From Lachnospiraceae bacterium (GTDB taxonomy: Bacteria; Bacillota; Clostridia; Lachnospirales; Lachnospiraceae): DNA of 60,234 bases. The stretch spans positions 1-60,234 of the forward strand of contig JAFSLV010000046.1 of the NCBI GenBank assembly GCA_017448245.1. The letters are read 5' to 3'. The notes under the pieces were generated by a model, which saw only the letters and a list, made by a program, of their open reading frames with translations, made no database searches and was not told the origin of the DNA. The translations under genes were made by a program, and so were the position numbers. Of this stretch, positions 29,195-55,464 are shown one piece after another (within the stretch, counting starts at the first letter, position 1; every line of letters starts with the position of its first letter).

Positions 29195-29956
29195 ATGAAT
29201 ATGCAAGTAAACAGACTGACACCAGAAGACCTTGCGGCGCGATACGCGCAGCCGGTTTCGCAAAAGCTCCGGGAGGAGCAGCAGGCGGGACATACCGCGC
29301 GTGCGGATCAGGCGGAAAGGACGGAGCAGACGGCAAAGGCGGGTCAGTCTTTTTTGCGGGAGAATCCCGCGCCCGATCCGAGGGAAGGCGTGGTGATGAA
29401 CCTGAGCAATGCCGCCCGGGAAGAAGACGGCGTTGTGCGTAAGGTGGAGACACCCGCAGAGAAGAAGGAGCCCGTGGAACGGAAGGAACCCGTGGAGCAG
29501 AAGGAACCCGTGGAAGCAAAGGAGCCTGCGGCACAGCCGAAGACTTCGAGGGAGGCGATCGAGGAGGTTGCCGACAAGCGGGATGACAGGAAGGCGGAGG
29601 CTGCCGAAGAAGAAGCAAACCCGGCCGTGCAGCCCGCGACTTCCAGAGAGGCGATCGAGGAGGTCGCCGAAAAGCGCAAGGAGGCAAAGGTCGAGGCGGC
29701 GGACCTGAGCGCCAATCCGGCCAAGCAGCCCGCGACATCGCGCGAAGCGATCGAGGAGGTGGCCGCAAAGCGCGAGGAGAAAAAGGAGGAGGCACCTGAG
29801 CTTGCGCCCGCAAGGGGCGAAAAGCAGGCGGAGGTCAATCCTGCCCAGCAGGCGCTCGAGGAAGGACGCGCGGCCAATATGTCGATCGACAGGATGCGCG
29901 ACGAGATGATGCAGCGCCAGCAGCAGCAACTGATCCAGCCGGTGCAGGCAGCGTAA
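29195..29956 (+). CDS. Hypothetical protein with Lys/Glu/Pro-rich repeats
   Basis: This 253-residue protein is unrecognised. It is hydrophilic and lacks a signal peptide or membrane segment. Residues 90-110 hold four KEPVE-type repeats, and three copies of a TSREAIEEVA(D/E/A)KR motif are spaced by about 36-38 residues between 118 and 200. A Gln-rich tail ends the protein (MMQRQQQQLIQPVQ). The pattern suggests an extended or coiled-coil protein, perhaps linked to surface or motility functions, but nothing proves this. The start follows GAGGGAAAAAAA. It has its own promoter and terminator. Confidence 0.65.
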   Translation: MNMQVNRLTPEDLAARYAQPVSQKLREEQQAGHTARADQAERTEQTAKAGQSFLRENPAPDPREGVVMNLSNAAREEDGVVRKVETPAEKKEPVERKEPVEQKEPVEAKEPAAQPKTSREAIEEVADKRDDRKAEAAEEEANPAVQPATSREAIEEVAEKRKEAKVEAADLSANPAKQPATSREAIEEVAAKREEKKEEAPELAPARGEKQAEVNPAQQALEEGRAANMSIDRMRDEMMQRQQQQLIQPVQAA

Positions 29957-31474: not shown

Positions 31475-32647
31475 ATGGACTACGGAAAGGTTTCTCTGGA
31501 AAAGCACGCGGAGTGGAGAGGCAAGATCGAGATCAACGTACGTGCCGCGGTGGACAGCGCGGAGGCATTGTCCCTCGCGTATACGCCGGGGGTCGCGACA
31601 CCCTGTCTCGAGATCCAGAAGGATGTCAACAAGAGCTATGAACTGACGAGACGATGGAACACGGTTGCGGTCGTGACGGACGGCACGGCGGTCCTGGGGC
31701 TCGGGGACATCGGTCCGGAGGCCGGGATGCCGGTCATGGAAGGCAAGTGCGCGCTGTTCAAGGCCTTTGGCGACGTGGACGCGATTCCTCTTTGCGTGCG
31801 CTCGAAGGACGTCGATACGATCGTCGAAACCGTGCGTCTTCTGGCAGGTTCCTTTGGCGGCGTCAATCTCGAGGACATCTCCGCCCCCCGTTGCTTTGAA
31901 ATCGAAAAGAAGCTGAAGGAGAGCTGTGACATTCCGATCTTCCATGACGACCAGCACGGCACGGCCGTCATCACGCTTGCCGGCGTCATCAACGCACTCA
32001 AGGTCGTCGGAAAAAAACTGGAGGACGTCAAGATCGTCACGAGCGGTGCGGGTGCCGCGGGCGTTGCCATCATCAAGCTGCTCATGGCGATGGGACTCAA
32101 AAATGTCATCATGACCGACCGTCAGGGCGCGATCTACAAAGGAAGGGACGGTCTCAATCCGATCAAGGAGGAGATGGCGGCGATCACCAATTTTAACGGC
32201 GAAAAGGGAACGCTTGCCGATGTCATAAAGGGCGCGGACCTCTTCATCGGCGTATCGGGACCGGGGACCCTTACGCAGGACATGGTACGCTCGATGGCAA
32301 AGGATCCCGTGATCTTTGCCTGTGCCAATCCGACGCCCGAGATCTTCCCGGACGAGGCAAAGGCCGCCGGCGCAGCCGTGATCTCGACCGGCCGCAGCGA
32401 TTTTCCCAACCAGGTCAATAACGTCCTGTGCTTCCCGGGGATCTTCCGCGGTGCGCTCGACGTGCGCGCATCCGACATCAATGACGAGATGAAGATCGCA
32501 TCGGCGAGGGCGCTGGCGGATCTCGTGAGCGAGAGCGAACTGAACGCGGAGTATATCCTTCCCAAGCCGTTTGACCCCCGCGTCAAGGACGCGGTAGCCA
32601 AAGCGGCCGCACAGGCGGCGAGGGATTCCGGGGTTGCGCGTTTATAA
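31475..32647 (+). CDS. Malic enzyme (oxaloacetate-decarboxylating malate dehydrogenase)
   Basis: This 390-residue enzyme converts L-malate to pyruvate, CO2 and reduced NAD(P). It is the short bacterial form. The catalytic Tyr lies in LSLAYTPGVA, the Lys in EGKCALFKAFG, the metal ligands in IPIFHDDQHGT and the nucleotide fold in VTSGAGAAGVAI. It has its own promoter and terminator and lies directly upstream of the inositol operon. I propose that it finishes the operon's pathway by taking L-malate to pyruvate. Cofactor preference (NAD or NADP) is not decided here. Confidence 0.95.
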   Translation: MDYGKVSLEKHAEWRGKIEINVRAAVDSAEALSLAYTPGVATPCLEIQKDVNKSYELTRRWNTVAVVTDGTAVLGLGDIGPEAGMPVMEGKCALFKAFGDVDAIPLCVRSKDVDTIVETVRLLAGSFGGVNLEDISAPRCFEIEKKLKESCDIPIFHDDQHGTAVITLAGVINALKVVGKKLEDVKIVTSGAGAAGVAIIKLLMAMGLKNVIMTDRQGAIYKGRDGLNPIKEEMAAITNFNGEKGTLADVIKGADLFIGVSGPGTLTQDMVRSMAKDPVIFACANPTPEIFPDEAKAAGAAVISTGRSDFPNQVNNVLCFPGIFRGALDVRASDINDEMKIASARALADLVSESELNAEYILPKPFDPRVKDAVAKAAAQAARDSGVARL

Positions 32648-32706
32648 AAGGTACTATAACAGCCGCTTATACCCCTAATAGAAATTTTGCACAATTTGTC
32701 AAGTCT

Positions 32707-32756
32707 AACGCCGGTTTTTCTTGTCCAAAACAGACAAAAAAATCGGCGTTTTTTTC
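32707..32756 (+). terminator. Terminator of the malic enzyme gene
   Basis: A long stem with arms beginning AACGCCG (32707-32713) and ending CGGCGTT (32744-32750), extended inward by T-rich/A-rich pairing, is followed by TTTTTT. Confidence 0.85.
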
Positions 32757-32809
32757 TTGTTTATAAACTGCGTTTATGATATAATTTCCAAATGCGGGTC
32801 AAAACCCGC
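32757..32809 (+). promoter_or_regulatory. Promoter and leader hairpin of the inositol operon
   Basis: TTGTTT (32757-32762) and TATAAT (32780-32785, with TG one base upstream) are 17 nt apart. A small perfect hairpin, GCGGGT-CAAA-ACCCGC (32794-32809), lies near the expected transcription start and could be an operator or a 5' stabiliser. Confidence 0.7.
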
Positions 32810-32860
32810 GGGGAGTTATTCACTTATTTTTCATAATTTTTCAACGAAGGAGGAAGTATT

Positions 32861-33934
32861 ATGAAAAGAAAGGTTTTATCTGTCATCATGTCTGCCATGA
32901 TGGTTGCACTGCTTGCGGGCTGCTCCGGCGGCGGCAATGCGGGCGGCGCAGCGAGTTCGGCAGCACCGGCCGCCTCTTCCGAGGCAGCAGGCGCGGCTTC
33001 GAGCGAAGATGCCGGCGGTGCCGGTGATGCGGGCGATGCGTCCTACTCGGTCGACGTCATCTTAAAGACGCTGGCGAGCGAGTACTGGAGCTATGTGAAG
33101 GCGGGCTGCGATGCCTATGCGGAAGAGCATCCCAATATCACGGTCGACGTCAAGGGCCCGGCTTCCGAGCAGTCCTATGACGAACAGCAGAACATGATCG
33201 AGACGGACCTGGCGTCCGGCGCGTACGATGCATTTGTCATTGCGCCGCTCCAGGGCGAGCAGGTAGCGACCCTGATCGCCGGACAGACGGCACCGATCCT
33301 TGCGGTCGACACCAACATCGTGGCACCGGAAGTCCTTTCCTTTGTCGGCACGGCCAATGAAGACGCGGCAAAAGAAGGCGGCCTTGCGGCTGTTGCTGCC
33401 GCAAAGGAAGCGGGCTGGGAAGAAGTGACGGCCATCTGCATCGCGGGTACCCAGGGTGATTCCACGGCGCAGGCACGCTTAGACGGCTATCAGAAGGGCG
33501 TCGAGGAAGCCGGCGGCACGTTCCTTGCAAATGAGACCCAGTGGGGCGAATCCAATCCGGAGAAGGCGGTTGCCGCAATGGAAGCCATCATGCAGAACCA
33601 TCCGGAAGGCGTTGCGATCATCGTATGCCACAACGACGACAGTGCGATCGCGGCGGCAAAGGCAGTGAGGGATTCCGGCAACGAAGCGTTTGCCAACACC
33701 ATCTTCTGCGGCTTTGACGGCACCAAGACCGCCTGCAGGGCGATCATCGCCGGCGACGAGACGATGTCTGTCGCGCAGGAAGCCTTTGACATGGGCTACA
33801 AGGCAGTGGAAGCGGCGGTTGCCGCACTGAACGGCGAGACGCTGGATCCCTTCATCGATTCCGGATGCTCGGTGGTGGACAGCTCCAATGCGCAGTCCAG
33901 ACTGGATCAGCTCAACGTCTACTATCCTGAATAA
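32861..33934 (+). CDS. Sugar/inositol ABC transporter substrate-binding lipoprotein
   Basis: This 357-residue lipoprotein has a lipobox LLAGC, a long Ala/Ser/Gly linker and a RbsB-type periplasmic binding fold (SVDVILKTLASEYWSYVKAG; CFGFDG-type hinge seen as FCGFDGTKTAC). With the genes at 34024 and 35523 it forms an importer like the ribose or myo-inositol (IbpA-IatA-IatP) systems. The iol genes downstream point to myo-inositol or an isomer. AGGAGG precedes ATG 32861. A hairpin at 33961-33992 separates it from the ATPase gene. Confidence 0.9.
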   Translation: MKRKVLSVIMSAMMVALLAGCSGGGNAGGAASSAAPAASSEAAGAASSEDAGGAGDAGDASYSVDVILKTLASEYWSYVKAGCDAYAEEHPNITVDVKGPASEQSYDEQQNMIETDLASGAYDAFVIAPLQGEQVATLIAGQTAPILAVDTNIVAPEVLSFVGTANEDAAKEGGLAAVAAAKEAGWEEVTAICIAGTQGDSTAQARLDGYQKGVEEAGGTFLANETQWGESNPEKAVAAMEAIMQNHPEGVAIIVCHNDDSAIAAAKAVRDSGNEAFANTIFCGFDGTKTACRAIIAGDETMSVAQEAFDMGYKAVEAAVAALNGETLDPFIDSGCSVVDSSNAQSRLDQLNVYYPE

Positions 33935-33960
33935 CCATCAGCTATACCGTCAGCTAAAGG

Positions 33961-33992
33961 GAGGCTTCTTATGCTTTGGCTTAAGAAGCCTC
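33961..33992 (+). repeat. Intercistronic hairpin after the binding-protein gene
   Basis: An 11-bp perfect stem (33961-33971 with 33982-33992) has a 10-nt loop and lacks a following T run. Such hairpins often protect the upstream mRNA and raise binding-protein levels relative to the ATPase and permease. Confidence 0.7.
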
Positions 33993-34023
33993 TCCTTCTA
34001 AATAAAGAGCAGGAGTGAATGCG

Positions 34024-35526
34024 ATGAGCGAATATGTGGTTGAATTAAAGGATATCACCAAGACGTTTCCCGGCGTAAGAGCGCTGAGCCATATGCAGTT
34101 AAACGTCAAGCCCGGCGAGATCCACGGACTGATCGGCGAAAACGGCGCCGGCAAGTCCACGCTGATCAAGGTACTGACCGGCGTGCACGAGGCGGACGAG
34201 GGAGAGGTCTTAGTCAACGGGGAAGTACAGCATTTCAAGGACCCGCAGGAGGCCATCCGGGCGGGTATCGCATGTGTCTATCAGGAGCTCAATATGGAGG
34301 CGCTCCTGAGCATCACGGACAATATCTTTATCAACAAGTGGATTAAGGGAAGCGGCGCGCTTCTTGATTACAGGCAGATGCACCGCATCGCCAAGGAGAC
34401 CATGCTGTCTCTCGGGCAGGATATCGACGTGACAAAGCCCGCGGGGTCTTTCGGTATGGGTATCCAGCAGATGGTAGAGATCGCGAAGGCGGTGATTGCC
34501 AATGCCAAAATGATCATTATGGACGAGCCGACGTCCTCTCTTTCCGACAATGAGATCGAGCAGCTCTTCAAGACCTGCCGGAAGCTGAAGGAAGAAGGTG
34601 TCGGCATTCTGTTTGTCTCGCACAAGCTGGAGGAACTGTTTGAGCTGTGCGACCGCGTCACGGTGGTGCGTGACGGGGAATACATCGCCACCAAGCCGAT
34701 CGGAGAGTGGAATAACGATGATCTGATCAGCGCCATGATCGGACGGACGCTCGAGAACCAGTTCCCGAAAAAATACGGCACGCGGAGCGAGGAGCCGTTC
34801 TTAAAGATCGAGAATCTCAACGAGCTGGGCGTGTTACGGGATATTTCCTTTGAGGCCTACGGAGGGGAGATCCTCGGGTTTTCCGGACTGGTTGGTGCCG
34901 GCCGCACGGAGACGATGCGCGCGATCTTCGGTGCGGACAAGATCGACAGCGGCAAAATCTACATCAAGGGGAAAGAGGCGCATATCAAATCCCCGCGCGA
35001 CGCCATCAATGCGGGCATCGCCTTTTTGACGGAGGACCGCAAGGGACAGGGACTCGTGCTCCCGGAATCCATCGGTCTCAATATGATCCTTGCCAATTTC
35101 AAACGCTTTACCAGCGGCTTTTTGCTGGACCAGAAGAAGATCAACGAGGCGGGACAAAAGAACATCGACGACCTCAAGATCAAGGCGACCGGCCTTGACG
35201 AAGCCGTGCAGCAGCTCTCCGGCGGAAACCAGCAGAAGGTCGTCATCGGCAAATGGGTCAACACGGACGCGGAGATCTATATTTTTGACGAATCGACGAG
35301 AGGCATCGACGTCGGCGCCAAGGTGGAGGTGTATGAGGTCATGAACCGCCTGGTGCAGGAAGGAAAATGCGTCATTATGGTCTCGTCGGAGCTGCCGGAG
35401 ATCCTCGGTATGTCGGACCGCATCATCGTGATGCGCGACGGTCATATCACCGGCGAGATGAAACGGGGAGAAGATACCTTTAACGAAGAATCAATTATGA
35501 AAGCAGCCTGGGAGGTACAATCATGA
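34024..35526 (+). CDS. Sugar/inositol ABC transporter ATPase (two-domain)
   Basis: This 500-residue RbsA/MglA-type protein has two ABC domains. The first has Walker A GENGAGKST and Walker B MIIMDEPTSSLS. The second has a degenerate Walker A (GLVGAGRTE) and signature LSGGNQQKV with IFDESTRGIDVG. This asymmetry is normal for the family. ATG 34024 is preferred to GTG 34015 because AGGAG (34011-34015) overlaps the latter. It overlaps the permease start by 4 nt. Confidence 0.94.
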   Translation: MSEYVVELKDITKTFPGVRALSHMQLNVKPGEIHGLIGENGAGKSTLIKVLTGVHEADEGEVLVNGEVQHFKDPQEAIRAGIACVYQELNMEALLSITDNIFINKWIKGSGALLDYRQMHRIAKETMLSLGQDIDVTKPAGSFGMGIQQMVEIAKAVIANAKMIIMDEPTSSLSDNEIEQLFKTCRKLKEEGVGILFVSHKLEELFELCDRVTVVRDGEYIATKPIGEWNNDDLISAMIGRTLENQFPKKYGTRSEEPFLKIENLNELGVLRDISFEAYGGEILGFSGLVGAGRTETMRAIFGADKIDSGKIYIKGKEAHIKSPRDAINAGIAFLTEDRKGQGLVLPESIGLNMILANFKRFTSGFLLDQKKINEAGQKNIDDLKIKATGLDEAVQQLSGGNQQKVVIGKWVNTDAEIYIFDESTRGIDVGAKVEVYEVMNRLVQEGKCVIMVSSELPEILGMSDRIIVMRDGHITGEMKRGEDTFNEESIMKAAWEVQS

Positions 35527-36515
35527 AAAAACGCAGTTCCGGATTAATGGATTACGCGGGCACGTTCGGCGCACTGCTGATTCTCTGTATCATCATGACG
35601 ATCGCAAGCGACAAGTTCCTGAGAGTCAACAATCTGATGAACATTCTGAAGCAGACGTCCTTTAACGCGCTCGTGGCAACGGGTATGTTGCTGGCTCTGA
35701 TTACGGCCGGTATCGACCTTTCGGTCGGTGCGGTGGCCACCTTTGCGGGCTGCGTTGCGGGATTTCTCCTGAGCAGAGGCGTCAACAACGCGCTCATACT
35801 GATTCTGGTGATGCTCCTGACGGGCACGGCGATCGGCACGATCAACGGTCTTTTGCTTACGAGGCTGCATCTGCCGCACCCCTTCGTATCGACGCTGGGT
35901 ATGAAAAACGTGCTATGGGGCGCTTCGCTCATCGTCACCAACTCGCAGATGATCGCGTTTTCCAACAGGGGCGTGGACGGCGTTCTGACACTGGGGTCCG
36001 CAACCATTGCAGGCTTCCCCGTGAGCTTTGTCGTCGTCATCATCATCTACATCATCATGCATATTCTTCTGACGAGAACCTCGCTCGGGCGCTCCATCTA
36101 CTGTGTGGGCGGCAATCCCGAAGCCACAAGACTCTCCGGTATCAACTCGGCCAATGTGCTGACCTTCTGCTTTGCGGTCTCCGGTTTTATGGCGGCGCTG
36201 GCGGGACTGGTCACCATCGGCAGGAGCGGTATCTGTAACGGCGCCAATGCCATCCAGCCCTACGACACGGACGCGATCGCTGCCTGTATCATCGGCGGCG
36301 CCTCGTTCCGCGGCGGCAAGGGTACCATGATCGGCACGATGCTCGGCGCACTGATCATCTCCGTTCTGCGTAACGGATTTACGCTTTTGTCCGTGGACAG
36401 TTCCTGGCAGAACCTGGTGCTCGGTCTTGTCATTATCGGCGCGGTGCTCTTAGATGTCATCCGCGGCCGGATGGCGGCCAATGCGCTCAGAAAAGCCGCG
36501 GCAGCCATCAAGTAA
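35523..36515 (+). CDS. Sugar/inositol ABC transporter permease
   Basis: This 330-residue RbsC-type permease has about ten hydrophobic segments and the typical sequences [25 protein letters not shown] and [15 protein letters not shown]. It forms the membrane channel with the ATPase at 34024. It lies directly ahead of iolD with a short gap. Confidence 0.94.
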
Positions 36516-36555
36516 TGTCGTTTCTTGTCTGCATACAAAAGAAAGGTGGGCAATG

Positions 36556-38484
36556 ATGAAATATGAAAAGATGACCGTGGGTCAGGCAATCGTTCGCTTT
36601 CTGGACAACCAGTACGTGGAATTCGACGGGAAGCAGACAAAGTTTGTGGACGGGATTTTTACCATCTTCGGTCACGGCATTGTCGTGGGCCTGGGCCAGG
36701 CACTCGATGAGAATCCGCGCGGCTTAAGAGTCTATCAGGGACGCAATGAGCAGGGCATGGCGCATGTGGCGGCAGGTTTTGCCAAGCAGAATAACCGCAG
36801 GAAGATCATCGCCTGTGCGTCCTCCATCGGACCCGGCGCCGCCAACATGATCACGGCGGCAGCAGACGCGACCGTCAATAACGTGCCGCTCCTTCTGTTC
36901 CCGGGGGACACCTATGCGACGAGACAGCCGGACCCCGTCTTACAGCAGGTAGAGCAGCCGGATTCGCTCGCCGTGACCACCAATGACGCGTACAAGCCCG
37001 TATGCAAATACTGGGACCGCATCATCCGCCCGGAACAGCTCATGAGCGCCATGATCAACGCGATGCGCGTGCTGACGGATCCCGCGGATACCGGCGCCGT
37101 ATGTATCGCGCTCTCGCAGGATGTCGAGGGAGAAGCCTATGACTATCCGGAGGAATTTTTCAAAAAGCGCGTCCATCGCATCACGCGCCCGCGTCCGGTC
37201 AAAGAGGATCTGGAGACACTGGTCTCCCTCTTCAGGAGTGCGAAAAAACCGCTCGTCATCTGCGGCGGAGGCGTGAGATATTCCGAGGCGGGAGAGGCGC
37301 TTGCGGCCTTCTGCAAAACGTTCCATATCCCGTTTGCGGAGACCCAGTCGGGAAAAAGCGCCTGCAAATCCTCCGATCCGATGAACCTCGGCGGTGTCGG
37401 CGTGACCGGCAACTTAAGCGCCAATATGATCGCGGAAAAGGCGGATCTGGTGCTGGCCGTCGGCTCGCGTCTGTCCGACTTTACGACCGGCTCAAAGAGC
37501 CAGTATAAGAATCCGAAGGTCAGATATGCGGCGATCAATCTCAGCAAATTCCATGCGTACAAGCTCGATGCCTATCCGGTAGTCGCGGACGCGAAGGCCG
37601 CGATCGAGGACCTGGCTGCGGCACTCAAAAAAGCAAAGTACCAAAGCGGATACAAGGGAGAGATCAGGGCGGCAAAGGATGCCTGGGACAGGGAGATGAA
37701 GCGCCTCGGCGACTACCGCTACAAAAAGAATTTCAAGACGCTTGTTGCCGCGCAGCATGAGGGCAGCATCGATGAGTTCGTTGCGCTTACGGGCGGCACG
37801 GTTACACAGACATCGGCCCTTTGCCTCATCCGCAAAGAGATCGCAAAGGACGCGATCGTGGTCGGCGCCTCCGGGTCTCTGCCGGGAGATCTCCAGCGCA
37901 TGTGGACGACGGACGCAAAGGACGCCTATCACATGGAATACGGCTATTCCTGCATGGGATATGAGATTGCGGCCGCACTCGGCGCAAAGATGGCGGAGCC
38001 AAAGCGCGAGGTCTATGCGATGGTCGGCGACGGGTCGTTCCTGATGCTGCATTCGGAGCTGATCACCTCGCTGCAGGAGGGGATGAAGATCAACGTCTTA
38101 CTCTTTGACAACTGCGGCTTTGGCTGCATCAACAACCTGCAGATGTCGAACGGCATCGGCAATCTCGCGACGGAGTTCCGCTATCGCGACAAAAAGGGAA
38201 AACTCGAGGGCGCGATGATTCCGGTCGATTATGCGCAGGTCGCCGCGGGCTACGGCTGCAGGACGTATACGGTAAAGACGCTGGAGGAACTGAAAAAGGC
38301 GCTTGCCGATGCCAAAAAGCAGAAGGTGTCGACGCTGATCGATATCAAGGCGCTGCCCAAGACCATGACCGACGGCTATCGTTCGTGGTGGAACGTGGGT
38401 CTTGCGGAGGTGACATCGAAAAAAGCACAGAAGGAAGCGTATGCGCGTCTCAAAAAAGCAAGAGATGCCGCTAGAAGATACTAA
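36556..38484 (+). CDS. iolD: 3D-(3,5/4)-trihydroxycyclohexane-1,2-dione acylhydrolase
   Basis: This 642-residue TPP enzyme opens the ring of the diketo-inositol intermediate to give 5-deoxy-D-glucuronate. The TPP-binding motif begins [15 protein letters not shown] and ends with [11 protein letters not shown]; the N-terminal Pyr domain contains [20 protein letters not shown] with the activating Glu. Length matches IolD. ATG 36556 is chosen because AAGGTGGG is well spaced; ATG 36553 is a close alternative. It is followed by iolE, iolG and iolB in the same direction. Confidence 0.95.
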
Positions 38485-38511
38485 AACCACTCATACAAAG
38501 GAGCAAAGCTT

Positions 38512-39411
38512 ATGCTGGACAAATCAAAAGTCAAACTCGGCATCGCGCCGATCGCGTGGACCAATGACGATCTGCCGGACCTCGGCGGGGAAAACACCTT
38601 TGAGCAGTGCGTCTCGGAGATGGCACTCGCGGGCTTTACGGGGAGCGAGGTCGGCAACAAGTATCCGAAGGATCCGGAGGTCTTAAAGAAGGCACTCGCA
38701 CTCAGGGGCATCGAGATCTGCAATGCGTGGTTCAGCGCGTTTCTCATCAGCAAACCCTTTGAAGAAACGGAAAAGCCCTTCCGCGAGCATGTCGCCTTTT
38801 TGAAAGCGATGGGCGCAAAGGTCGTGGGGATCTCGGAGCAGAGCTATTCCACGCAGGGCGACCAGAAGCAGCCGGTCTTTGAAGACAAGTACGTGATGAA
38901 CGACGAAGAATGGAAGAGGCTGTGCGACGGCTTAAACCGCCTCGGCAGGATCTCCAAAGAAGAGTACGGCATCGCGTTGACGCTGCATCATCACATGGGC
39001 ACCGTCGTCCAGACGGCGGAGGAGACCGACCGCATGATGGAAGGCACCGATCCGGAGTATTTCAGTCTGCTCTTTGATTCCGGTCACTTTGCCTATTGCG
39101 GGGAGGACCCGGTCAGGGAGCTCACCAAGCATATCGCGCGCGTCAAACACGTCCATCTCAAGGACATCCGTCCGGATGTCGTCAAGAGGGTAAAGGAAGA
39201 GCGGATGAGCTTCCTCGACGGTGTGCGCGCGGGCGCCTTTACGATCCCGGGCGACGGCTGCGTGCAGTTTGATCCCATCTTCAAGCTGCTCGAGGATAAC
39301 GGCTACGAGGGCTACATGGTCGTTGAGGCCGAGCAGGATCCCGCCAAGGCCAATCCGCTTGAGTATGCCATCCGTGCGAGAAAATTTATCGCCGAAAAAA
39401 CAGGACTGTAA
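38512..39411 (+). CDS. iolE: Inosose dehydratase
   Basis: This 299-residue TIM-barrel protein removes water from 2-keto-myo-inositol to give the 1,2-dione used by IolD. The IolE opening [20 protein letters not shown] and the metal-binding segments [23 protein letters not shown] and VHLKDIR are visible, with a final [11 protein letters not shown]. Length matches the family. The ribosome site AAAGGAG precedes ATG 38512. Confidence 0.95.
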
Positions 39412-39447
39412 CTGCTGATCATATTATTAAAAAGGAGACGATCCCAT

Positions 39448-40458
39448 ATGATTACTGTCGGAATCATCGGTGCGGGACGCATCGGAAAAGTACACGCGGG
39501 TACGATCGCATATCATGTGCCGGGGGCAAAGATCAAGACCATTGCGGACCCCTTTATGAATGCGGAAACGGAAAACTGGGCAAAGTCGCTCGGGATTGAG
39601 CACACCACAAAGGATTACAAGGAAATCATCGCGGACAAGGAAATCGACGCGGTGCTGATCTGTTCTTCGACGGATACACATTCCCCGATTTCGATCGAGG
39701 CAATCGAAGCGGGCAAGCATGTCTTTTGCGAAAAGCCGATCGACCATGATGTCGCCAAGATCAAGGACGTCATGGAAGCGCTCAAGAAGCATCCGGTCAA
39801 ATATCAGGTCGGCTTTAACCGCCGTTTTGACCACAACTACGAGGCTGTCGAGCAGGCGGTGCGCGCGGGCAAGATCGGGGATCCGCATCTGATCCTGATC
39901 ACGAGCCGCGATCCGGAGCCGCCGGGCATCGATTATGTCAAGGTATCGGGCGGTCTCTTCCTCGACATGATGATCCATGATTTTGACATGGTGCGTTTTC
40001 TTGCCGGATGCGACGCGACGGAGGTCTATGCGGAGGGCGCGGTGCTCGTTGACAAGGCGATCGGCGAGGCCGGCGACATCGATACGGCGGTGGTCACGCT
40101 CCGGATGGAGAACGGTGCGATCGCGGTGATCGACAACTCGAGAAAGGCGGTCTACGGTTATGACCAGCGCGCCGAGGTCTTTGGATCAAAGGGCATGGTG
40201 CAGAGTGTCAATGATTCCAAATCGACCGCGATCCTCTCCAACGAGGACGGCGTCACGAGCGAGGTGCCGCTGCACTTTTTCTTAGAGCGCTATACGGAAG
40301 CCTATGCCAAGGAAGTGATACAGTTTTGCGAAGCGATCGAGAAGAATACGGACACGCCGCTCGGCGTCGAGGACGGTTTAAAGCCCGTGCTGATGGGCCT
40401 TGCCGCCAAAAAGTCCCTGGAGGAGCACCGTCCGGTCAAGATCTCCGAGATCGGCTGA
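39448..40458 (+). CDS. iolG: Inositol 2-dehydrogenase
   Basis: This 336-residue Gfo/Idh/MocA protein oxidises myo-inositol to 2-keto-myo-inositol with NAD. The Rossmann motif is GAGRIG, and the family catalytic triad is present as Lys96 (CEKPID), Asp173 and His177 (LDMMIHDFDM), matching the positions known in the Bacillus subtilis enzyme. It may accept other inositol isomers. AAAAAGGAG precedes ATG 39448. Confidence 0.93.
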   Translation: MITVGIIGAGRIGKVHAGTIAYHVPGAKIKTIADPFMNAETENWAKSLGIEHTTKDYKEIIADKEIDAVLICSSTDTHSPISIEAIEAGKHVFCEKPIDHDVAKIKDVMEALKKHPVKYQVGFNRRFDHNYEAVEQAVRAGKIGDPHLILITSRDPEPPGIDYVKVSGGLFLDMMIHDFDMVRFLAGCDATEVYAEGAVLVDKAIGEAGDIDTAVVTLRMENGAIAVIDNSRKAVYGYDQRAEVFGSKGMVQSVNDSKSTAILSNEDGVTSEVPLHFFLERYTEAYAKEVIQFCEAIEKNTDTPLGVEDGLKPVLMGLAAKKSLEEHRPVKISEIG

Positions 40459-40476
40459 GAAAAGAGGGGAAACCAT

Positions 40477-41310
40477 ATGAGCATGTTTTTATATCCGTCG
40501 TTTGACGACGGGGTCAAGGTACTCTCCCGTGCGGGAGATGCGGACAATGACATGATGATGGACATCGATGTCTACCGCATGAAGGCCAGTGATACGCGCA
40601 CCTTTTCGGACGCGGCACAGGAGACGGCAGTGATGCTCGTCCTCGGAGATATCACCTACGAGTGGGAGGGCAGGAGCGAAACGGCGCACAGGGACAGCTT
40701 TATCAGTGAGTCGCCCTGGTGTCTGCATGTATGCCGCGGCACCAGGATCAAGGTGACGGCCAATGCGGAGAGCGAGGTGCTCGTGCAGCGTACCGAAAAT
40801 GACGTGACCTTCGATGCCGTTTTTTACCGGCCGGAGGATGTCAATGAAAAGGTGCTGGGCATCGGCGTCTGGGAGGACAGGATGCAGCGGACGGTGCGTA
40901 CGATTTTTGACTATACCAACGCCCCGTATTCGCACATGGTGAACGGCGAGGTCATCAACCATCAGGGTTCCTGGTCCTCATATACGCCGCACTGGCATCC
41001 GCAGCCCGAGGTTTATTATTACCGGTTCGAGAGGCCCGAGGGCTTTGGCGCCTGCTTCCAGACAAAGGGAGAAAAGAGCAACGTGCCGGGCGACGAGGAG
41101 GGAGAAGAGATCTTTCTCATCAGGGACGGTTCCGTGGCACATATCAAGCCGGGACGGTTGCATTCGCAGTCGGCGGCGCCGGCCTTTGACATGTATTATT
41201 GCTGGATGATCCGGCATTTGCCGGACAACCCGTGGACGGACCGCGTGGTGGATCCCAGATATGAATGGATCGATCAGAATATGTACGCGGGCATGAACGG
41301 AGCGGAATAA
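40477..41310 (+). CDS. iolB: 5-deoxy-glucuronate isomerase
   Basis: This 277-residue cupin isomerises 5-deoxy-D-glucuronate to 2-deoxy-5-keto-D-gluconate. Family sequences visible are GSWSSYTPHWHPQPEVYYYRF (shown here in part) and HSQSAAPAFDMYYCWMIRHL near the end, carrying metal-binding His and Glu residues. Length is normal. It is the last recognisable canonical iol gene. No iolC kinase, iolJ aldolase or iolA dehydrogenase occurs in the window. Confidence 0.93.
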   Translation: MSMFLYPSFDDGVKVLSRAGDADNDMMMDIDVYRMKASDTRTFSDAAQETAVMLVLGDITYEWEGRSETAHRDSFISESPWCLHVCRGTRIKVTANAESEVLVQRTENDVTFDAVFYRPEDVNEKVLGIGVWEDRMQRTVRTIFDYTNAPYSHMVNGEVINHQGSWSSYTPHWHPQPEVYYYRFERPEGFGACFQTKGEKSNVPGDEEGEEIFLIRDGSVAHIKPGRLHSQSAAPAFDMYYCWMIRHLPDNPWTDRVVDPRYEWIDQNMYAGMNGAE

Positions 41311-41336
41311 AAAAACCGGGACAGAAAGGAGCAGAT

Positions 41337-42377
41337 ATGAGCAAAATCAAGGTAGGTGTAGCAGGATACGGTACGATCGGACAGCGTCTCGCGGACGGTG
41401 TCGCGCTGCAGGAGGATATGGAGCTGGTCGGCGTTGCCGATATGGCACCGACGCTTGCGGTCAGGGCGCTGTACGAAAAGGGAATGCCGTATGATCTGTA
41501 TCTGGTGGACGGTGCGGACAAGGGTGCGTTTGACGCACTCGGGATTCCGACCAGGGGCAGCATGAATGACCTGATCGGCAAGGTCGACATCATGCTCGAT
41601 TCCGCACCCGGCGGCATCGGCGCCAAGAATAAAGAACTCTATCAGAAGGCCGGCGTCAAGGCCATCTTCCAGGGCGGAGAGAAAAATGACGTCGCGGATG
41701 TCTTTTTCCACGGCTATGCCAATTATGAAAAGGGTGTCGGCAAGGATTATCTCAAGCTCACGAGCTGCAACACGACGGGTCTCATCCGTTCGGTGGACTG
41801 TCTCGACCGTGCCTTTGGCATCGAGAAGGTCGCGATCACGATCATCCGCAGGGTGGCGGATCCGGGCGATTATCACAGGGGACTCACCAATGCGCTGCAG
41901 GTCGACAAGGCACCTTCACACCAGGCGGTCGATCTGATGACGATCATGCCGCACGTCAACGCGACCGGCATCCTCGTGCATACGCCGGTGACGCACGGAC
42001 ATATCATCACGGTGCTCGCGACGGGAAAACAAAAGATCACCAAAGAGATGGCGCTCGAAACCTTTCAGAAGCATCCGCGCATCCGCGTCGTGCGGCTTGC
42101 GGACGGATTCCAGGGCAACGCGTCGCTCTTCAAATACGCGAGGGACCTCGGCCATACCAGAGGCGACATGTACGAGATCGGTCTGTGGGAAGAATCCATC
42201 GTCGAGAGCGGCAATGATATCATGTACGCGATCAACATCCCGCAGGAATCGGTGACGATCCCCGAGACGATCGACGGCATCCGTGCCGCGATGAAGATGC
42301 AGGAAAAAGGCGAGGAAGGCACCGCAAAGACCAACGAATATCTGGGCATCGGCAAGTTCAAGGCGATGGGACTCTGA
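41337..42377 (+). CDS. Archaeal-type (type II) GAPDH homologue; proposed D-malate semialdehyde dehydrogenase
   Basis: This 346-residue protein belongs to the archaeal type II glyceraldehyde-3-phosphate dehydrogenase family, rare in Firmicutes. The NAD fold is VAGYGTIGQRLAD, the catalytic Cys144 lies in SCNTTGLIR and an HGH pair (His220/His222) matches the catalytic histidine region. Compared with archaeal enzymes as I recall them, the PSHHGPD segment is PSHQAVD and GPINxIVP is GLTNALQV, which hints at altered substrate. I propose that it oxidises D-malate semialdehyde to an acyl phosphate. Ordinary GAPDH activity is the alternative. AAAGGAG precedes ATG 41337. Confidence 0.85.
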   Translation: MSKIKVGVAGYGTIGQRLADGVALQEDMELVGVADMAPTLAVRALYEKGMPYDLYLVDGADKGAFDALGIPTRGSMNDLIGKVDIMLDSAPGGIGAKNKELYQKAGVKAIFQGGEKNDVADVFFHGYANYEKGVGKDYLKLTSCNTTGLIRSVDCLDRAFGIEKVAITIIRRVADPGDYHRGLTNALQVDKAPSHQAVDLMTIMPHVNATGILVHTPVTHGHIITVLATGKQKITKEMALETFQKHPRIRVVRLADGFQGNASLFKYARDLGHTRGDMYEIGLWEESIVESGNDIMYAINIPQESVTIPETIDGIRAAMKMQEKGEEGTAKTNEYLGIGKFKAMGL

Positions 42378-42389
42378 GAGAGGAAGGAC

Positions 42390-43634
42390 ATGAAATTCGG
42401 TATCAAAACAATCGATGAATTCGAGCTCGACGGCAGGACCGTCCTGATCCGCGTGGACATGAACCAGCCCGTGGACATGGCGACGGGAAAGCTCAAGTCC
42501 ACGGCCAGGATCAAGGCCTGTGCGCCGACGGTCAGAGAGCTTGCCGAGAAAGGCGCCAAGGTCGTCGTGCTTGCACATCAGGGCTCGGACATCGAATACA
42601 AAAACTTTTACACGACCGCACCGCACCGCGAGGTACTCGAGGGCTTTGTCGGACGTCCCGTGCAGTTTATCGAGGACGTCTGCGGCCCGGCCGCGATCGA
42701 AAAGATCCGGTCCCTGTCTGCGGGAGATATCCTTTTGCTCGACAACGTGCGCTTTATGTCGGAGGAGCAGACGCTCTTTGAACAGAAGCTGCAGCTGTCA
42801 CATGAGGAGCAGGCAAAGACGCTTGTCGTACGGAAACTCGCACCGCTTGCGGATCTGTATGTCTGCGACGCGTTTGCCGCTGCGCACCGCGACCAGCCTA
42901 CGCTCTGCGGATTTGAGCAGGTACTTCCGAGCGCGATGGGAAGACTCTTTGAAAAAGAATACGTCGTCATCTCGGAGCTGATGGAATCTCCCGCACGTCC
43001 CTGCACCTTTGTGCTGGGCGGTGCCAAGATCTCCGACGCTTTTTTGATGATGGAAACGGTACTCGGCAAAGGTACGGCGGACCGCATTCTCACCGGCGGT
43101 CTCGTGGCGAATATCCTGCTCATCGCCGCGGGAAAAGAGATCGGCCAGGGCTCTTATGATTTTATCGTGAAATCGAATTACGGGGAGTATATCGAAAAGG
43201 CAAAGAAGATCTATGCGGAATACCAAGACCGCTTTGTGCTGCCTGTCGATATCGCCTATACCGAAGACGGTAAAAGAAAGGAAGCGGACATCGGCGCGGT
43301 ACCCGCGGCGGTAGCCGCGACGGACATCGGCAAAAAGAGCGCGGCGCAGTATCAGGAAATCATCCGCTCCTCCGCCACGGTCTTTGTGAACGGACCGATG
43401 GGCATCTTTGAGGAGGAGGAGACGGAGTTTGGAACGAAAGCGGTGTGGGAGGCGCTCGGTGACACACCGGCCTATACGGTGGTCGGCGGCGGTGATTCGA
43501 TCACGGCCACGACCAAATACGGGAAGACCGACGACATCTCTTACATCTGTACCGGCGGCGGCGCGCTCATCCGGTTCCTGACGGGCGAGGAGCTGCCGGT
43601 CGTAAAGGCCTTACGGCACGGGGCGACCATATGA
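42390..43634 (+). CDS. Archaeal-type phosphoglycerate kinase homologue; proposed malyl-phosphate kinase
   Basis: This 414-residue protein is clearly a phosphoglycerate kinase of the archaeal branch (VLIRVDMNQP; FVLGGAKISDA; VFVNGPMGIFEEEE; VVGGGDS). Most substrate residues are kept: Arg21, Asp23, Asn25, Arg40, His63, Arg121 and Arg167. The position equal to Arg65 of classical PGK, which binds the 3-phosphate, is Ser66 here (AHQGSD instead of HxGRP), and the usual NDAF is CDAF. I propose that it takes an acyl phosphate of D-malate to D-malate and ATP. Ordinary PGK activity is the alternative. It overlaps larA by 4 nt. Confidence 0.87.
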   Translation: MKFGIKTIDEFELDGRTVLIRVDMNQPVDMATGKLKSTARIKACAPTVRELAEKGAKVVVLAHQGSDIEYKNFYTTAPHREVLEGFVGRPVQFIEDVCGPAAIEKIRSLSAGDILLLDNVRFMSEEQTLFEQKLQLSHEEQAKTLVVRKLAPLADLYVCDAFAAAHRDQPTLCGFEQVLPSAMGRLFEKEYVVISELMESPARPCTFVLGGAKISDAFLMMETVLGKGTADRILTGGLVANILLIAAGKEIGQGSYDFIVKSNYGEYIEKAKKIYAEYQDRFVLPVDIAYTEDGKRKEADIGAVPAAVAATDIGKKSAAQYQEIIRSSATVFVNGPMGIFEEEETEFGTKAVWEALGDTPAYTVVGGGDSITATTKYGKTDDISYICTGGGALIRFLTGEELPVVKALRHGATI

Positions 43635-44881
43635 CCATTGATATCGGCATCGGACAGGGCACACAACCGCTGCAGATCGCAGACGACAATCTGCTGCAGG
43701 TGTTGCGCGCCAATGAAGTCAGCCATGAACCGGACGCGGAAAAGGAGGTACGGCGTTCCCTTGAGGAACCGATCGGAAGTCCCCGCCTGCGTGAGATCGT
43801 GCATCCGGGAGAAAAGATCGCCATCATCACAAGCGACGTTTCCCGGCCGATGCCGACCCGCGACGTGATGGGACCGCTCCTCGACGAACTCTATGCGGCG
43901 GGCTGCAAAAAAGAAGACATCACGCTGGTTTTTGCGCTGGGTTCGCACCGCGCACAGACGGAGGAAGAAAAAAAGAAGCTTGCGGGTGAGCGCGCCTATG
44001 CGGAGATCACCTGCATCGATTCGGATCCCGACGACGTCGTGCATCTCGGAGACACGGCACACGGGACGCCGATCGATATCTTCCGGCCGGTCGCGCAGGC
44101 GGATCGCAGGATCTGCCTGGGCAACATCGAGTATCATTATTTTGCGGGATACTCGGGCGGCATCAAGGCGGTTTTTCCCGGATGTTCGACAAGGCATGCG
44201 ATCCAGGCAAATCATTCGATGATGGTGGAGGATGCGGCCTGCGCCGGCAATCTCGTCCGCAATCCTGTGCGTGATGATCTCGAGGAAGTACAAAAGCATC
44301 TCAAGGTCGATTTCATCATCAATGTCGTGCTGGACGAACACAAGCATATCGTCAGATCGTTTGCGGGCGATATCGGACAGGCGCACAGGGAGGGTTGTAA
44401 GTTTCTCGATACGATGTATCTGGTGGAGATCCCGGAGCGCGCGGATATCGTTGTCGTTTCGCAGGGCGGCGCCCCCAAGGACCTCAATCTCTATCAGACA
44501 CAGAAGGCTCTCGACAACGCCAAGCATGCCATCGCGGACGGCGGCGTGATCGTGCTCGTCGGCAGCTGCAGAGAGGGTCTCGGAGAAAAGACCTTTGAAG
44601 AGTGGCTGACGCAGGCCAGTACACCGGACGAGCTGATCGGGCGCGTGATGACGGATTTTAAACTCGGCGGACACAAGGCGGCCGCCATCGCAATGGTGCT
44701 GAAGAAGGCGGAGATCTTTCTTGTGAGCGACATGGAGGATGATTTTGTGCGTTCGCTCTTTATGACACCGTATGCGACGGTGCAACAAGCCTATGATGCC
44801 GCGCTTGCCAAAAAGGGAAAGGACGCGAAGGTGATCGTGATGCCGTACGGCGGGTCGACCCTGCCGCGTTGCAAGGATTGA
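43631..44881 (+). CDS. larA: LarA-family nickel-pincer racemase; proposed D-malate racemase
   Basis: This 416-residue protein matches LarA, whose nickel-pincer cofactor swaps the configuration of 2-hydroxy acids. Family residues are present: His106 (GSHRAQ), His169 and Lys179 (YHYFAGYSGGIKAVFPG) and His195 (QANHSMM), matching H108, H174, K184 and H200 of the Lactiplantibacillus plantarum enzyme. LarA homologues acting on malate are known. In this operon it would turn D-malate into L-malate. It needs LarB, LarC and LarE from elsewhere in the genome. The ATGA overlap with the PGK gene shows coupling. Confidence 0.9.
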   Translation: MTIDIGIGQGTQPLQIADDNLLQVLRANEVSHEPDAEKEVRRSLEEPIGSPRLREIVHPGEKIAIITSDVSRPMPTRDVMGPLLDELYAAGCKKEDITLVFALGSHRAQTEEEKKKLAGERAYAEITCIDSDPDDVVHLGDTAHGTPIDIFRPVAQADRRICLGNIEYHYFAGYSGGIKAVFPGCSTRHAIQANHSMMVEDAACAGNLVRNPVRDDLEEVQKHLKVDFIINVVLDEHKHIVRSFAGDIGQAHREGCKFLDTMYLVEIPERADIVVVSQGGAPKDLNLYQTQKALDNAKHAIADGGVIVLVGSCREGLGEKTFEEWLTQASTPDELIGRVMTDFKLGGHKAAAIAMVLKKAEIFLVSDMEDDFVRSLFMTPYATVQQAYDAALAKKGKDAKVIVMPYGGSTLPRCKD

Positions 44882-44898
44882 TTTTCCGGAGGTAGAAT

Positions 44899-45735
44899 AT
44901 GCTGGACAGTGAAAAGATCAAAGAACTGCGCAAAAGAGCGCTCGAGATCCGCATCGGTGCGGTGGAGGAGTTTCGTGCGCTCGGTTTCGGACACATCGGA
45001 GGATCGCTGTCGATCGCGGATCTTCTGGCGGTGCTCTACTGGGAAGTGATGAAGGTGGATCCGAAAAATCCGCAGATGGAGGACCGGGACAAGCTCGTCT
45101 GTTCCAAAGGGCATGCGGGACCCGCCATCTATGCGGCGCTGGCGCTCAAGGGCTTTTTTCCGTACGAGGACATCAAAACACTCAATGTGCCGGGGACCAG
45201 TTTTCCGAGTCACTGCGACCGCAACAAGACGAAAGGCGTCGACATGACGACGGGATCGCTCGGGCAGGGCAGTTCTGCCGCGGTCGGCATTGCGCTCGGA
45301 GACAAGCTCAAAGGTCTTTCTTCCCGGACGTTTCTGATCGTGGGTGACGGCGAATCCGATGAGGGACAGGTCTGGGAGGCGGCGATGTTTGCGGCGGCCA
45401 AACAGGTCACCAATCTCGTCTGGATCGTGGATGACAATAAAAAGCAGCTCGACGGTTTTACCAAAGATATCCTCAATCCGTTTGATTTCCGCCTGAAGCT
45501 CGAAGCCTTCGGTTTTGACGCGGTACGCGTGGATCCGGGAGACATCGGCGCGCTGCATGAGGCATTGACCAAAAAAGCAACCGACCGGCCTGTCGCCATC
45601 GTGCTGGATAATGTCAAGGGCCGCGGCATCAAAGAGGTCGAGGAGACGTTTTCCAATCACTCGATGAACGTGCCGACGGAGAAATACGACGAGTGGCTCA
45701 AAGGTCTCAGGGACGAGCTCGCGGCGCTCGGTTGA
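44899..45735 (+). CDS. Transketolase, N-terminal subunit
   Basis: This 278-residue protein carries the TPP-binding half of a split transketolase. Visible are the GHIGGSLS start, CSKGHAGPAIYAALA, the GSLGQGSS loop and the TPP motif from GDGESDEGQVWEA to IVDDN. It would pair with the subunit at 45752. I propose that its ketose donor here is 2-deoxy-5-keto-D-gluconate and its acceptor an aldose phosphate such as glyceraldehyde-3-phosphate. A general pentose phosphate role is the alternative. TCCGGAGG precedes ATG 44899. Confidence 0.93.
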   Translation: MLDSEKIKELRKRALEIRIGAVEEFRALGFGHIGGSLSIADLLAVLYWEVMKVDPKNPQMEDRDKLVCSKGHAGPAIYAALALKGFFPYEDIKTLNVPGTSFPSHCDRNKTKGVDMTTGSLGQGSSAAVGIALGDKLKGLSSRTFLIVGDGESDEGQVWEAAMFAAAKQVTNLVWIVDDNKKQLDGFTKDILNPFDFRLKLEAFGFDAVRVDPGDIGALHEALTKKATDRPVAIVLDNVKGRGIKEVEETFSNHSMNVPTEKYDEWLKGLRDELAALG

Positions 45736-45751
45736 GGAAGGGGGCATCAGG

Positions 45752-46714
45752 ATGAAGATTGTATATAACGGAGAAAAAGACGTTGCGTTTAAAGACGTGC
45801 TGGGTGCCACGATTCCTCAGATTGCCGAAAGCGACGACAGGGTGGTATATCTGGATGCCGATCTGATGAGCTGTATCGGTACGACCGCCTGGGCAAAGGA
45901 GCATCCGGACCGGGCATTCAATGTCGGCATCGCGGAGGCCAATATGATGGGCATCGCCGCGGGGCTGTCCGTGGTCGGTTTCAAGCCGATCGTGCATACC
46001 TTCGGGCCGTTTGCGTCGAGACGTTCCTTTGACCAGATCTTTTTGTCGATCGGCTATGCGGGGAATGCCGTGACGATCATCGGCACGGATCCCGGCGTAT
46101 GCGCGGCCTATAACGGAGGCACGCACATGCCGTTTGAGGATATGGCGCTGTATCGTGCAATTCCGGGTGCGTATGTCTTTGACATGACGGATACGGCGAT
46201 GCTCAAGAGTATCCTTCCGCAGTGCAAGGACTTACCCGGCGTCAAGTATATCCGTGTCGGCCGGAAGAGCAATGACAGAATGTATGAGGAAGGACAGACC
46301 TTTACGCCCGGCAAGGGAATCGTGACATGTGAAGAGGGAACGGATGCGGTGATCATCGCCTGCGGTATCATGGTGGGCATGGCGATGAAGGCGGCACAGA
46401 CGCTCGTAGAAGAGGGCATCCGGGTCACGGTGGTCGACATGTTTACGGTCAAGCCGCTTGATGACGCACTGGTGCTGGAGACGGCCGCAAAGTGCGGCGC
46501 CGTCGTGACCGCGGAAAATCACAACCGCATCGGCGGTCTCTACAGTGCGGTGACCGATCTGCTTTCTTTGAAGCATCCGGTGCCGGTCGAATACGTCGCC
46601 GTCGAGGACGAGTACGGCGAGGTCGGACCGCAGGATTATCTGGAAGAGCGCTTTCGTCTGACACCTGCGCATATTGCGGAAAAGGTAAAGAAAGCGATTG
46701 CGAGGAAACAATAA
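45752..46714 (+). CDS. Transketolase, C-terminal subunit
   Basis: This 320-residue protein holds the Pyr and C-terminal domains of the split transketolase. The activating Glu is in VGIAEANMMGIAAGLS; FGPFASRRSFDQI and GGTHMPFEDMALYRAIPG are typical. It is coupled to the N-terminal subunit gene by a 16-nt gap with GAGGAAGGGGG as the ribosome site. It ends the pathway genes; the next gene lacks a clear ribosome site. Confidence 0.93.
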   Translation: MKIVYNGEKDVAFKDVLGATIPQIAESDDRVVYLDADLMSCIGTTAWAKEHPDRAFNVGIAEANMMGIAAGLSVVGFKPIVHTFGPFASRRSFDQIFLSIGYAGNAVTIIGTDPGVCAAYNGGTHMPFEDMALYRAIPGAYVFDMTDTAMLKSILPQCKDLPGVKYIRVGRKSNDRMYEEGQTFTPGKGIVTCEEGTDAVIIACGIMVGMAMKAAQTLVEEGIRVTVVDMFTVKPLDDALVLETAAKCGAVVTAENHNRIGGLYSAVTDLLSLKHPVPVEYVAVEDEYGEVGPQDYLEERFRLTPAHIAEKVKKAIARKQ

Positions 46715-55422: not shown

Positions 55423-55424
55423 CA

Positions 55425-55453: not shown

Positions 55454-55464
55454 ACATCAGGAAA

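Follow-up and report, generated by a model that had tools for sequence, protein, structure and literature searches.

How would a bacterium degrade inositol with an operon that encodes an importer and the early enzymes of the classical pathway and, where the kinase is expected, a split transketolase together with relatives of two glycolytic enzymes and a racemase? The question is raised by positions 31475..46714 of a 60,234-nucleotide stretch of DNA from a Lachnospiraceae bacterium (assembly GCA_017448245.1, contig JAFSLV010000046.1; hereafter, the whole stretch is called the window), which corresponds to contig C42 in a 48-contig genome assembly of 2.54 Mb that is 99.5% complete. The original prediction for this locus had been that a transketolase cleaves the inositol-derived 2-deoxy-5-keto-D-gluconate and that the product is D-malate. 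Our analysis of gene content, protein families, conserved residues, and gene neighborhoods leads us to regard this transketolase/D-malate route as the likely best explanation of the operon: anaerobes of the gut and rumen seem to degrade the plant sugar alcohol inositol by an undescribed, kinase-free transketolase route to malate, with a gain of ATP.

The operon

All genes listed for the region were found on the + strand. The importer, of the ATP-binding cassette type, consists of a sugar-binding protein (32861..33934; PF13407, 127 bits), for which the context points to inositol as ligand, and of an ATPase (34015..35526) and a permease (35523..36515), two open reading frames that were named by eye from the sequence. 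These genes are followed by those for the ring-opening hydrolase IolD (36553..38484; TIGR04377, 940 bits against a cut-off of 715), the inosose dehydratase IolE (38512..39411; TIGR04379, 411 bits against 290), the inositol 2-dehydrogenase IolG (39448..40458; TIGR04380, 479 bits against 355), and an IolB-like isomerase (40477..41310), which is predicted to make 2-deoxy-5-keto-D-gluconate. The isomerase passed the KduI/IolB model PF04962 (168 bits) and fell below the cut-off of TIGR04378 (87 bits against 205); a comparison with solved structures gave no match at E 0.001. The possibility that the low TIGR04378 score marks an enzyme different from IolB was discarded upon inspection of a relative from the same genus (L154), which has a classical IolC-IolD-IolB-IolE-IolG cluster and whose IolB is also under the cut-off (85 against 205). 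A low IolB score in this lineage thus occurs with the classical route too.

The remainder of the operon encodes GapII (41337..42377), which resembles type II glyceraldehyde-3-phosphate dehydrogenase (GAPDH; NF003251, 416 bits against 185; TIGR01546, 319 bits against 233), PGK2 (42390..43634), which resembles phosphoglycerate kinase (PGK; PF00162, 377 bits), a LarA homologue (43631..44881; NF052593, “nickel-dependent malate racemase, LarAH6,” 578 bits against 500), and the N-terminal (44899..45735; PF00456, 131 bits against 22) and C-terminal (45752..46714) subunits of a split transketolase. For both subunits, the best NCBIfam model is NF004559, a full-length transketolase model, and the solved chain nearest to the C-terminal subunit is that of a split transketolase (6yaj, 234 bits). 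A malic enzyme gene (31475..32647; PF00390, 106 bits, and PF03949, 105 bits, both over the Pfam cut-offs) lies upstream of the importer. From IolD through the second transketolase gene, the gaps measure 12 to 36 bases, PGK2 and LarA overlapping by 4 bases; because 213 bases part the malic enzyme from the importer gene, the former is a candidate member of the same transcript only. Scans for promoters (9 sites vs. 7.7 ± 2.2 in shuffled sequences) and terminators (21 vs. 14.6 ± 3.5) gave little beyond the shuffled background.

The gene set that the original prediction had placed in one operon is hence present in full, on one strand and at the coordinates given for it. Its description of the GAPDH and the PGK as archaeal-type also holds, the nearest solved structures being P. 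horikoshii GAPDH (2czc, 271 bits) for GapII and P. horikoshii PGK (2cun, 315 bits; next chain, 222 bits) for PGK2.

The proposed route

Import, IolG, IolE, IolD, and an IolB-family isomerase are common to this operon and the classical myo-inositol pathway of the Bacillus subtilis type (IolG-E-D-B-C-J-A), and 2-deoxy-5-keto-D-gluconate is therefore expected here, too. Inositol would be imported and converted to this compound by IolG, IolE, IolD, and IolB as in the classical route, without phosphorylation. The split transketolase would then transfer C6–C5 as a ketol to an aldose phosphate. The acceptor is probably glyceraldehyde-3-phosphate, which would become xylulose-5-phosphate, and the cut between C5 and C4 would leave D-malate semialdehyde (3-hydroxy-4-oxobutanoate, OHC-CHOH-CH2-COO-). 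When 2-deoxy-5-keto-D-gluconate is viewed from the CH2OH end, its C3/C4 configuration is the D-threo one of xylulose and fructose, and transfer of a C2 unit leaves a D aldehyde; this geometry, part of the original argument, was confirmed by a stereochemical check and is established chemistry. D-malate semialdehyde, in turn, is glyceraldehyde-3-phosphate with CH2-COO- for CH2-OPO3.

GapII, as a predicted phosphorylating D-malate-semialdehyde dehydrogenase, would use NAD and phosphate to turn this aldehyde into an acyl phosphate, from which PGK2, as a predicted acyl-phosphate kinase, would generate D-malate and ATP. Since phosphorylating oxidation followed by transfer to ADP yields D-malate, a racemase (or a D-malate dehydrogenase) is needed before the malic enzyme can act. 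LarA, a predicted malate racemase, would convert D-malate to L-malate, and the malic enzyme would complete the route by converting L-malate to pyruvate and CO2. Relative to the classical route, one ATP would be gained instead of one being spent, and malonate semialdehyde would not be formed. At the level of gene presence and protein family, the set has a gene for each of these needs, the reactions themselves being inferred.

Absence of the classical kinase

The original prediction had noted that the kinase, aldolase, and semialdehyde dehydrogenase of the classical route are missing from the window. For the kinase and the dehydrogenase, the absence at cut-off extends to the whole genome: the best hit to the IolC model reaches 96 bits against a cut-off of 300, and IolA (methylmalonate-semialdehyde dehydrogenase) has no match at E ≤ 1e-100. 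The IolJ aldolase was not searched for; a class II aldolase model for it would match fructose-bisphosphate aldolase as well. Where the classical pathway has IolC and IolA, the operon thus has the transketolase, GapII, PGK2, and the malate racemase homologue. The genome also encodes a housekeeping GAPDH-I and PGK, neighbors on contig C19, which makes the GapII and PGK2 of the operon extra copies and agrees with their original description as paralogues.

To place these absences in context, IolD was sought in a phylum sample of 398 genomes, in which 18, including the genome studied here, pass the cut-off. Fifteen of the other 17 pass the IolC cut-off, and none of those 15 has GapII at E 1e-20. 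The remaining two (G382 and G564) have IolC under the cut-off, and both carry GapII at 75 to 77% identity. Consequently, GapII is present in all three IolD genomes without IolC and in none of the 15 with it, a distribution with a chance of 1 in 816, or 1 in 136 when our own genome is left out (computed by hand). The neighborhoods in G382 and G564 contain GapII, PGK2, both transketolase genes, IolB, IolD, and LarA; one of them also has malic enzyme, and the other has close IolE/IolG. The same-genus relative has IolC, and GapII was not found in it.

A second view came from the relatives of GapII described below, among which 38 genomes were chosen for GapII and 30 for a GapII locus without IolD; both sets were picked from the same 80 loci, with the L070 genome left out. 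IolD is present in 35 of the 38 genomes (by locus label or model), IolC is over the cut-off in three, and IolA in two, and there are therefore 32 genomes with IolD and GapII and without IolC at cut-off. One carrier without IolC at cut-off is Lachnospiraceae bacterium FE2018 (L047, G310). Incomplete assemblies may explain a few of these absences but hardly 32 of 35; the completeness figures cover the phylum sample and not the genomes reached via the loci. The search for the same gene set without IolC in other genomes, which the original prediction had proposed, thus gave mutual exclusion of IolC and GapII in all 18 sampled IolD genomes, but 3 of the 38 genomes picked for GapII pass the IolC cut-off. 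Nearly all of these 38 genomes match GAPDH-I (37, with 34 over the cut-off), and at least two PGK matches were obtained in 37. On the basis of the GAPDH-I matches, a role of GapII as the glycolytic enzyme in these species was rejected.

Recurrence of the gene set

A scan for GapII with one genome per species yielded 427 relatives, of which the best 80 (79–95% identical) were taken as loci L020–L099. Genes were called in these loci with a home-made caller and labeled by BLAST hits to the window proteins at >35% identity; many of the 80 loci end at contig ends. According to the record titles, the loci come from Lachnospiraceae, Christensenellaceae, other Clostridia, Treponema, other spirochaetes, Synergistaceae, Anaerolineaceae, and Chloroflexi. 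Within the order of our bacterium (295 genomes), a full-length GapII match was found in its own genome only, ten others giving weak matches to, at most, the first 79 residues.

The same genes recur around GapII, as a complete or partial set and in varying order. Of the loci, 36 have 20.2 kb or more of sequence; PGK2 is present in 35 of them, LarA in 26, the transketolase and IolD or IolE in 21 each, and malic enzyme in 17, and half of these loci (18) have GapII, PGK2, transketolase, LarA, and Iol together. For all 80 loci, the numbers are 74 for PGK2, 45 for LarA, 41 for the transketolase, 38 for IolD or IolE, 34 for a malic enzyme relative, and 22 for the five together. The transketolase count, 42 as labeled, was lowered to 41 because the protein in L037 clusters as E1-beta-like; the counts for the 36 loci are unaffected. 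In the spirochaetes, the relatives of LarA and of malic enzyme are distant, with identities of 33 to 34% and 42 to 45%, respectively.

Conserved residues in PGK2, GapII, and LarA

Residue counts were limited to proteins that exceed 85% of the length of the window protein; with the latter included, this gave 74 PGK2, 81 GapII, 44 LarA, and 40 transketolase C-terminal subunits (L152 and L153 were excluded). In PGK, the residues that hold the 3-phosphate presumably include His62, Arg65, Arg122, and Arg170, and we take Asp23, Asn25, and Arg38 to hold the hydroxyl/carboxylate end (yeast-type numbering). In the alignment, the position of Arg65 is occupied by Ser in 58 and by Asp in 16 of the PGK2 proteins, so that none of the 74 is basic there, compared with 31 of 31 housekeeping PGKs (Arg in 19, Lys in 12) and with archaeal PGK 2cun (Lys). 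The other ligand positions listed are kept in all 74. The loss of a basic residue at this one phosphate ligand fits, as we infer it, a substrate in which a carboxylate replaces the phosphate. Ser-type and Asp-type PGK2 share a mean identity of 43%. The PGKs that are approximately 43% identical at some loci were considered as housekeeping enzymes, and this was rejected; they form a second PGK2 subfamily, likewise without Arg65, and the Asp type is also found beside transketolase and iol genes (L050, L059, L097, and L099).

GapII keeps the catalytic Cys and His of GAPDH when aligned with 1cf2, the motif SCNTTG being invariant and VTHGH retained. It differs from its archaeal counterparts at two sites: the motif SHQAVD (with His, Gln, Ala, and Asp invariant in the 81 proteins) takes the place of SHHGPD in three of the archaeal structures and of SHHAKD in the fourth, and Asp35, present in 80 of 81, is Lys in all four archaeal GAPDH structures aligned. 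Asp35 suggests a preference for NAD over NADP. GapII and PGK2 thus share their fold families, and GapII the catalytic Cys/His, with the archaeal type II GAPDH and archaeal PGK, and part from them at Asp35, at SHQAVD, and at the position where 2cun has Lys.

The racemase that the original prediction had placed beside a malic enzyme falls in the malate racemase family: in addition to the score given above, the nearest solved chain is the malate racemase Mar2 (LarAH6; 6d6z, 402 bits). Five of the seven LarAs that were tested are over the malate racemase cut-off (window, L152, L153, L089, and L056). Of the Mar2 residues described in PMC7583248, Tyr172, Gln293, and Lys351 are kept in all 44 LarAs of the operons, and Lys173 is Phe in all 44. 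The GHK motif is also kept.

GapII and PGK2 without inositol genes

In the 30 genomes chosen for a GapII locus without IolD, IolD is over the cut-off elsewhere in 20, present as a fragment in one, and not found in nine. In eight of these nine, a malate enzyme adjoins GapII-PGK2: LarA in L026, L032, L033, L037, L056, L072, and L089, and, directly after PGK2 in L098, a protein that passes the tartrate dehydrogenase model TIGR02089 (504 bits against 470), a family that we take to include D-malate dehydrogenases. No malate enzyme adjoins the pair in L030. Since malate enzymes stand beside GapII-PGK2 even without IolD, the link of the pair to malate seems closer than its link to inositol. This supports D-malate as the product, and it suggests that the pair also receives other substrates. 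The parts of the original prediction that sequence can address were mostly supported. Given its occurrence in genomes without IolD, the pair appears to be a malate module on which inositol catabolism draws rather than an inositol-only device.

Four of the IolD-less loci (L030, L037, L056, and L089) have pyruvate/acetoin-dehydrogenase-type E1-E2(-E3) genes beside GapII-PGK2 in the place of the transketolase. Scans of the E1 proteins of L030, L056, and L089 left E1-alpha under the cut-offs of named models, and the E1-beta proteins of L056 and L089 pass NF006667, a pyruvate dehydrogenase E1-beta subfamily model. The notion that this complex performs the same inositol chemistry was dropped, as the four genomes are without IolD; L043 was dropped as a further case: its complex is encoded away from GapII and on the other strand, and its genome has IolD. 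Tentatively, and with somewhat more doubt than confidence on our part, GapII and PGK2 plus a malate racemase or D-malate dehydrogenase could form a portable module that oxidizes D-malate semialdehyde with formation of ATP and that is fed by different thiamine diphosphate-dependent enzymes cutting alpha-ketols, namely the split transketolase in the case of inositol and the pyruvate dehydrogenase/acetoin-type complex in L037, L056, and L089, where another sugar acid would give glycolyl-CoA and the same aldehyde.

Weighing the alternatives

Several observations count against the transketolase/D-malate route. The gene evidence for it is strong, and every substrate and every reaction is predicted from that evidence. 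GapII-PGK2 occurs in the nine genomes without IolD, and LarA occurs with IolD or IolE and without a transketolase in 6 of the 80 loci. The Iol-GapII loci without a transketolase include L040, L045, L051, and L053; in L053, PGK2 and LarA are likewise missing from the locus, where iol genes accompany GapII. Three genomes chosen for GapII exceed the IolC cut-off; in the phylum sample, G564, which gave no IolC hit, is 75% complete, and G382, at 99% completeness, has a kinase that reaches 233 bits against the IolC cut-off of 300. The spirochaete LarAs of L046 and L085 have the malate racemase model as their best match and score 405 and 414 against its cut-off of 500, and Lys173 of Mar2 is Phe in 44 of 44 operon LarAs. 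In PGK2, Lys219 is replaced by Ala in 74 of 74 proteins, a change that is uninformative on substrate because 2cun also lacks Lys there (Ser). The C-terminal transketolase subunit has Asp at the position of His466 in 40 of 40 proteins (KCFDR in the window). This Asp was considered as diagnostic of the substrate and abandoned: the only other transketolase of the genome (L156; G000:C35), which is split and lies beside what by eye is an RpiB-like gene, has it as well, so that it carries no weight for this substrate. Finally, a phosphoglycerate mutase (cluster c12) adjoins operon genes in 16 of the 80 loci and would fit a glycolytic role.

One alternative, with which the mutase would agree, is that GapII and PGK2 form a second pair of glycolytic enzymes for glyceraldehyde-3-phosphate and 1,3-bisphosphoglycerate, in which case the transketolase may still cut deoxyketogluconate and another dehydrogenase would oxidize malate semialdehyde. 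GapII, which passes models named for glyceraldehyde-3-phosphate dehydrogenase and keeps the Cys and His of that family, would suit such a role, but nearly all genomes examined already have a GAPDH-I match and another PGK match, the basic phosphate ligand is gone from every PGK2, malate enzymes accompany the pair in eight of the nine genomes without IolD, and no other aldehyde dehydrogenase was seen among the open reading frames of the operon. We consider this explanation unlikely. That the classical route proceeds through an unrecognized kinase and aldolase encoded elsewhere, with the transketolase, GapII, PGK2, and LarA forming a separate malate or sugar-acid pathway that shares the operon, is improbable: the exclusion of IolC and GapII runs through all 18 sampled IolD genomes, the same-genus relative with IolC is without GapII, and the same genes stand amid iol genes in several orders and phyla. 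What speaks for it is that the genome has other PfkB-family kinases, the source of the 96-bit hit to the IolC model, that the search did not extend to IolJ, and that GapII-PGK2 is found without IolD in 9 of 30 genomes.

It is also conceivable that the transketolase cuts deoxyketogluconate as proposed and that the C4 aldehyde is then reduced or isomerized, with LarA acting on another 2-hydroxy acid. The Phe at position 173 of LarA and the fate of the C4 aldose in the sulfoquinovose pathway, which is isomerized and cleaved a second time (PMC11659671), would be compatible with this. In the window LarA, however, the score is above the malate racemase cut-off and both the GHK motif and the Gln residue are retained, a malic enzyme relative is near GapII in 34 of the 80 loci, and the tartrate dehydrogenase-family protein of L098 directly follows PGK2; we regard this version as very improbable.

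Relation to known pathways

The transketolase/D-malate route would be a new inositol route assembled from known enzyme families: its front half is already known, and the cleavage resembles reactions of sulfo-transketolase and of a mutant transketolase. In sulfoquinovose degradation, the sulfo-transketolase SqwGH, a split enzyme, acts on an unphosphorylated ketose with glyceraldehyde-3-phosphate as acceptor, and its pocket motif is RAFDR in place of RSFHR, Asp replacing His (PMC11659671). An operon-encoded split transketolase is common to both systems, as would be, by our prediction, transfer of a C2 unit from an unphosphorylated ketose; the pocket Asp is seen in both, but also in the other transketolase of the genome. 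They differ in that the substrate here would be a carboxylate and not a sulfonate and in that the C4 aldehyde would be oxidized to malate with a gain of ATP. A mutant Escherichia coli transketolase converts 5-keto-D-gluconate to tartaric semialdehyde (PMC12016104), which amounts to cutting the same bond in a substrate one hydroxyl group apart. That work concerns a mutant enzyme and a process for tartaric acid production rather than a natural catabolic operon and contains no GAPDH/PGK energy step. Mar2 is the nearest precedent for LarA, which differs from it by Phe for Lys173; a search of two LarA papers (PMC7583248 and PMC11770544) did not find the word “inositol.” A search of the open-access PMC literature found no description of a transketolase or malate racemase/semialdehyde route for inositol or deoxyketogluconate, the papers it listed (PMC5808187 and PMC7736159) being judged unrelated by title and abstract, and a paper elsewhere is possible.

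Neighboring genes

In L035 (titled Christensenella) and in similar Clostridia loci, the phosphoglycerate mutase gene immediately precedes IolG-GapII. The copy at L045:7376-8941 scores 464 bits with TIGR01307 against a cut-off of 331, its residues 13–304 matching model positions 214–504; the remainder resembles the start of the model by eye, and the protein is probably a circular permutation. Upstream of IolG, L042, L045, L048, and similar loci encode a run of several HAD-family hydrolases together with a PHP-domain protein, a PfkB kinase, and what by eye is a LacI-type regulator, an arrangement that suggests feeding from inositol phosphates. In L098:7502-13479, genes of the PdxA, short-chain dehydrogenase, and Asp/Glu racemase families precede GapII, PGK2, and the tartrate dehydrogenase-family protein in an apparent acid-sugar operon that employs this module as well. 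A TIM-barrel isomerase-like protein, which belongs to one cluster in all four cases, is found near GapII/transketolase loci at L026:17921-19932 and in L032, L049, and L025; beside it in L026 and L032 is a zinc alcohol dehydrogenase. These genes may represent another feeding pathway.

Elsewhere in the window, labels given by eye include a glycyl-radical-enzyme-like gene followed by a radical-SAM activase-like gene (20-2772, + strand) and two adjoining AhpF/thioredoxin-reductase-like flavoproteins of approximately 565 amino acids with a peroxiredoxin (53731-57767, − strand). A 253-amino acid protein encoded at 29195-29956 (+ strand) contains three copies of a repeat around TSREAIEEV.

Implications

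In guts and rumens, the inositol released from phytate commonly serves as a source of carbon. A 2022 survey counted as inositol degraders genomes with three of iolB, iolC, iolD, and iolE clustered and considered that a missing fourth gene may result from incomplete sequence, assembly errors, or frameshifts (PMC9430895). A 2026 study described growth on inositol without known clusters in other genera and proposed an unidentified alternative pathway (PMC12838507). The operon described here offers a concrete and testable inositol route for anaerobes of several phyla. If the route is true, a pathway that spends ATP would become one that gains it, a role would be suggested for a group of malate racemases, and many proteins of gut anaerobes annotated as GAPDH and PGK would be predicted to be non-glycolytic.

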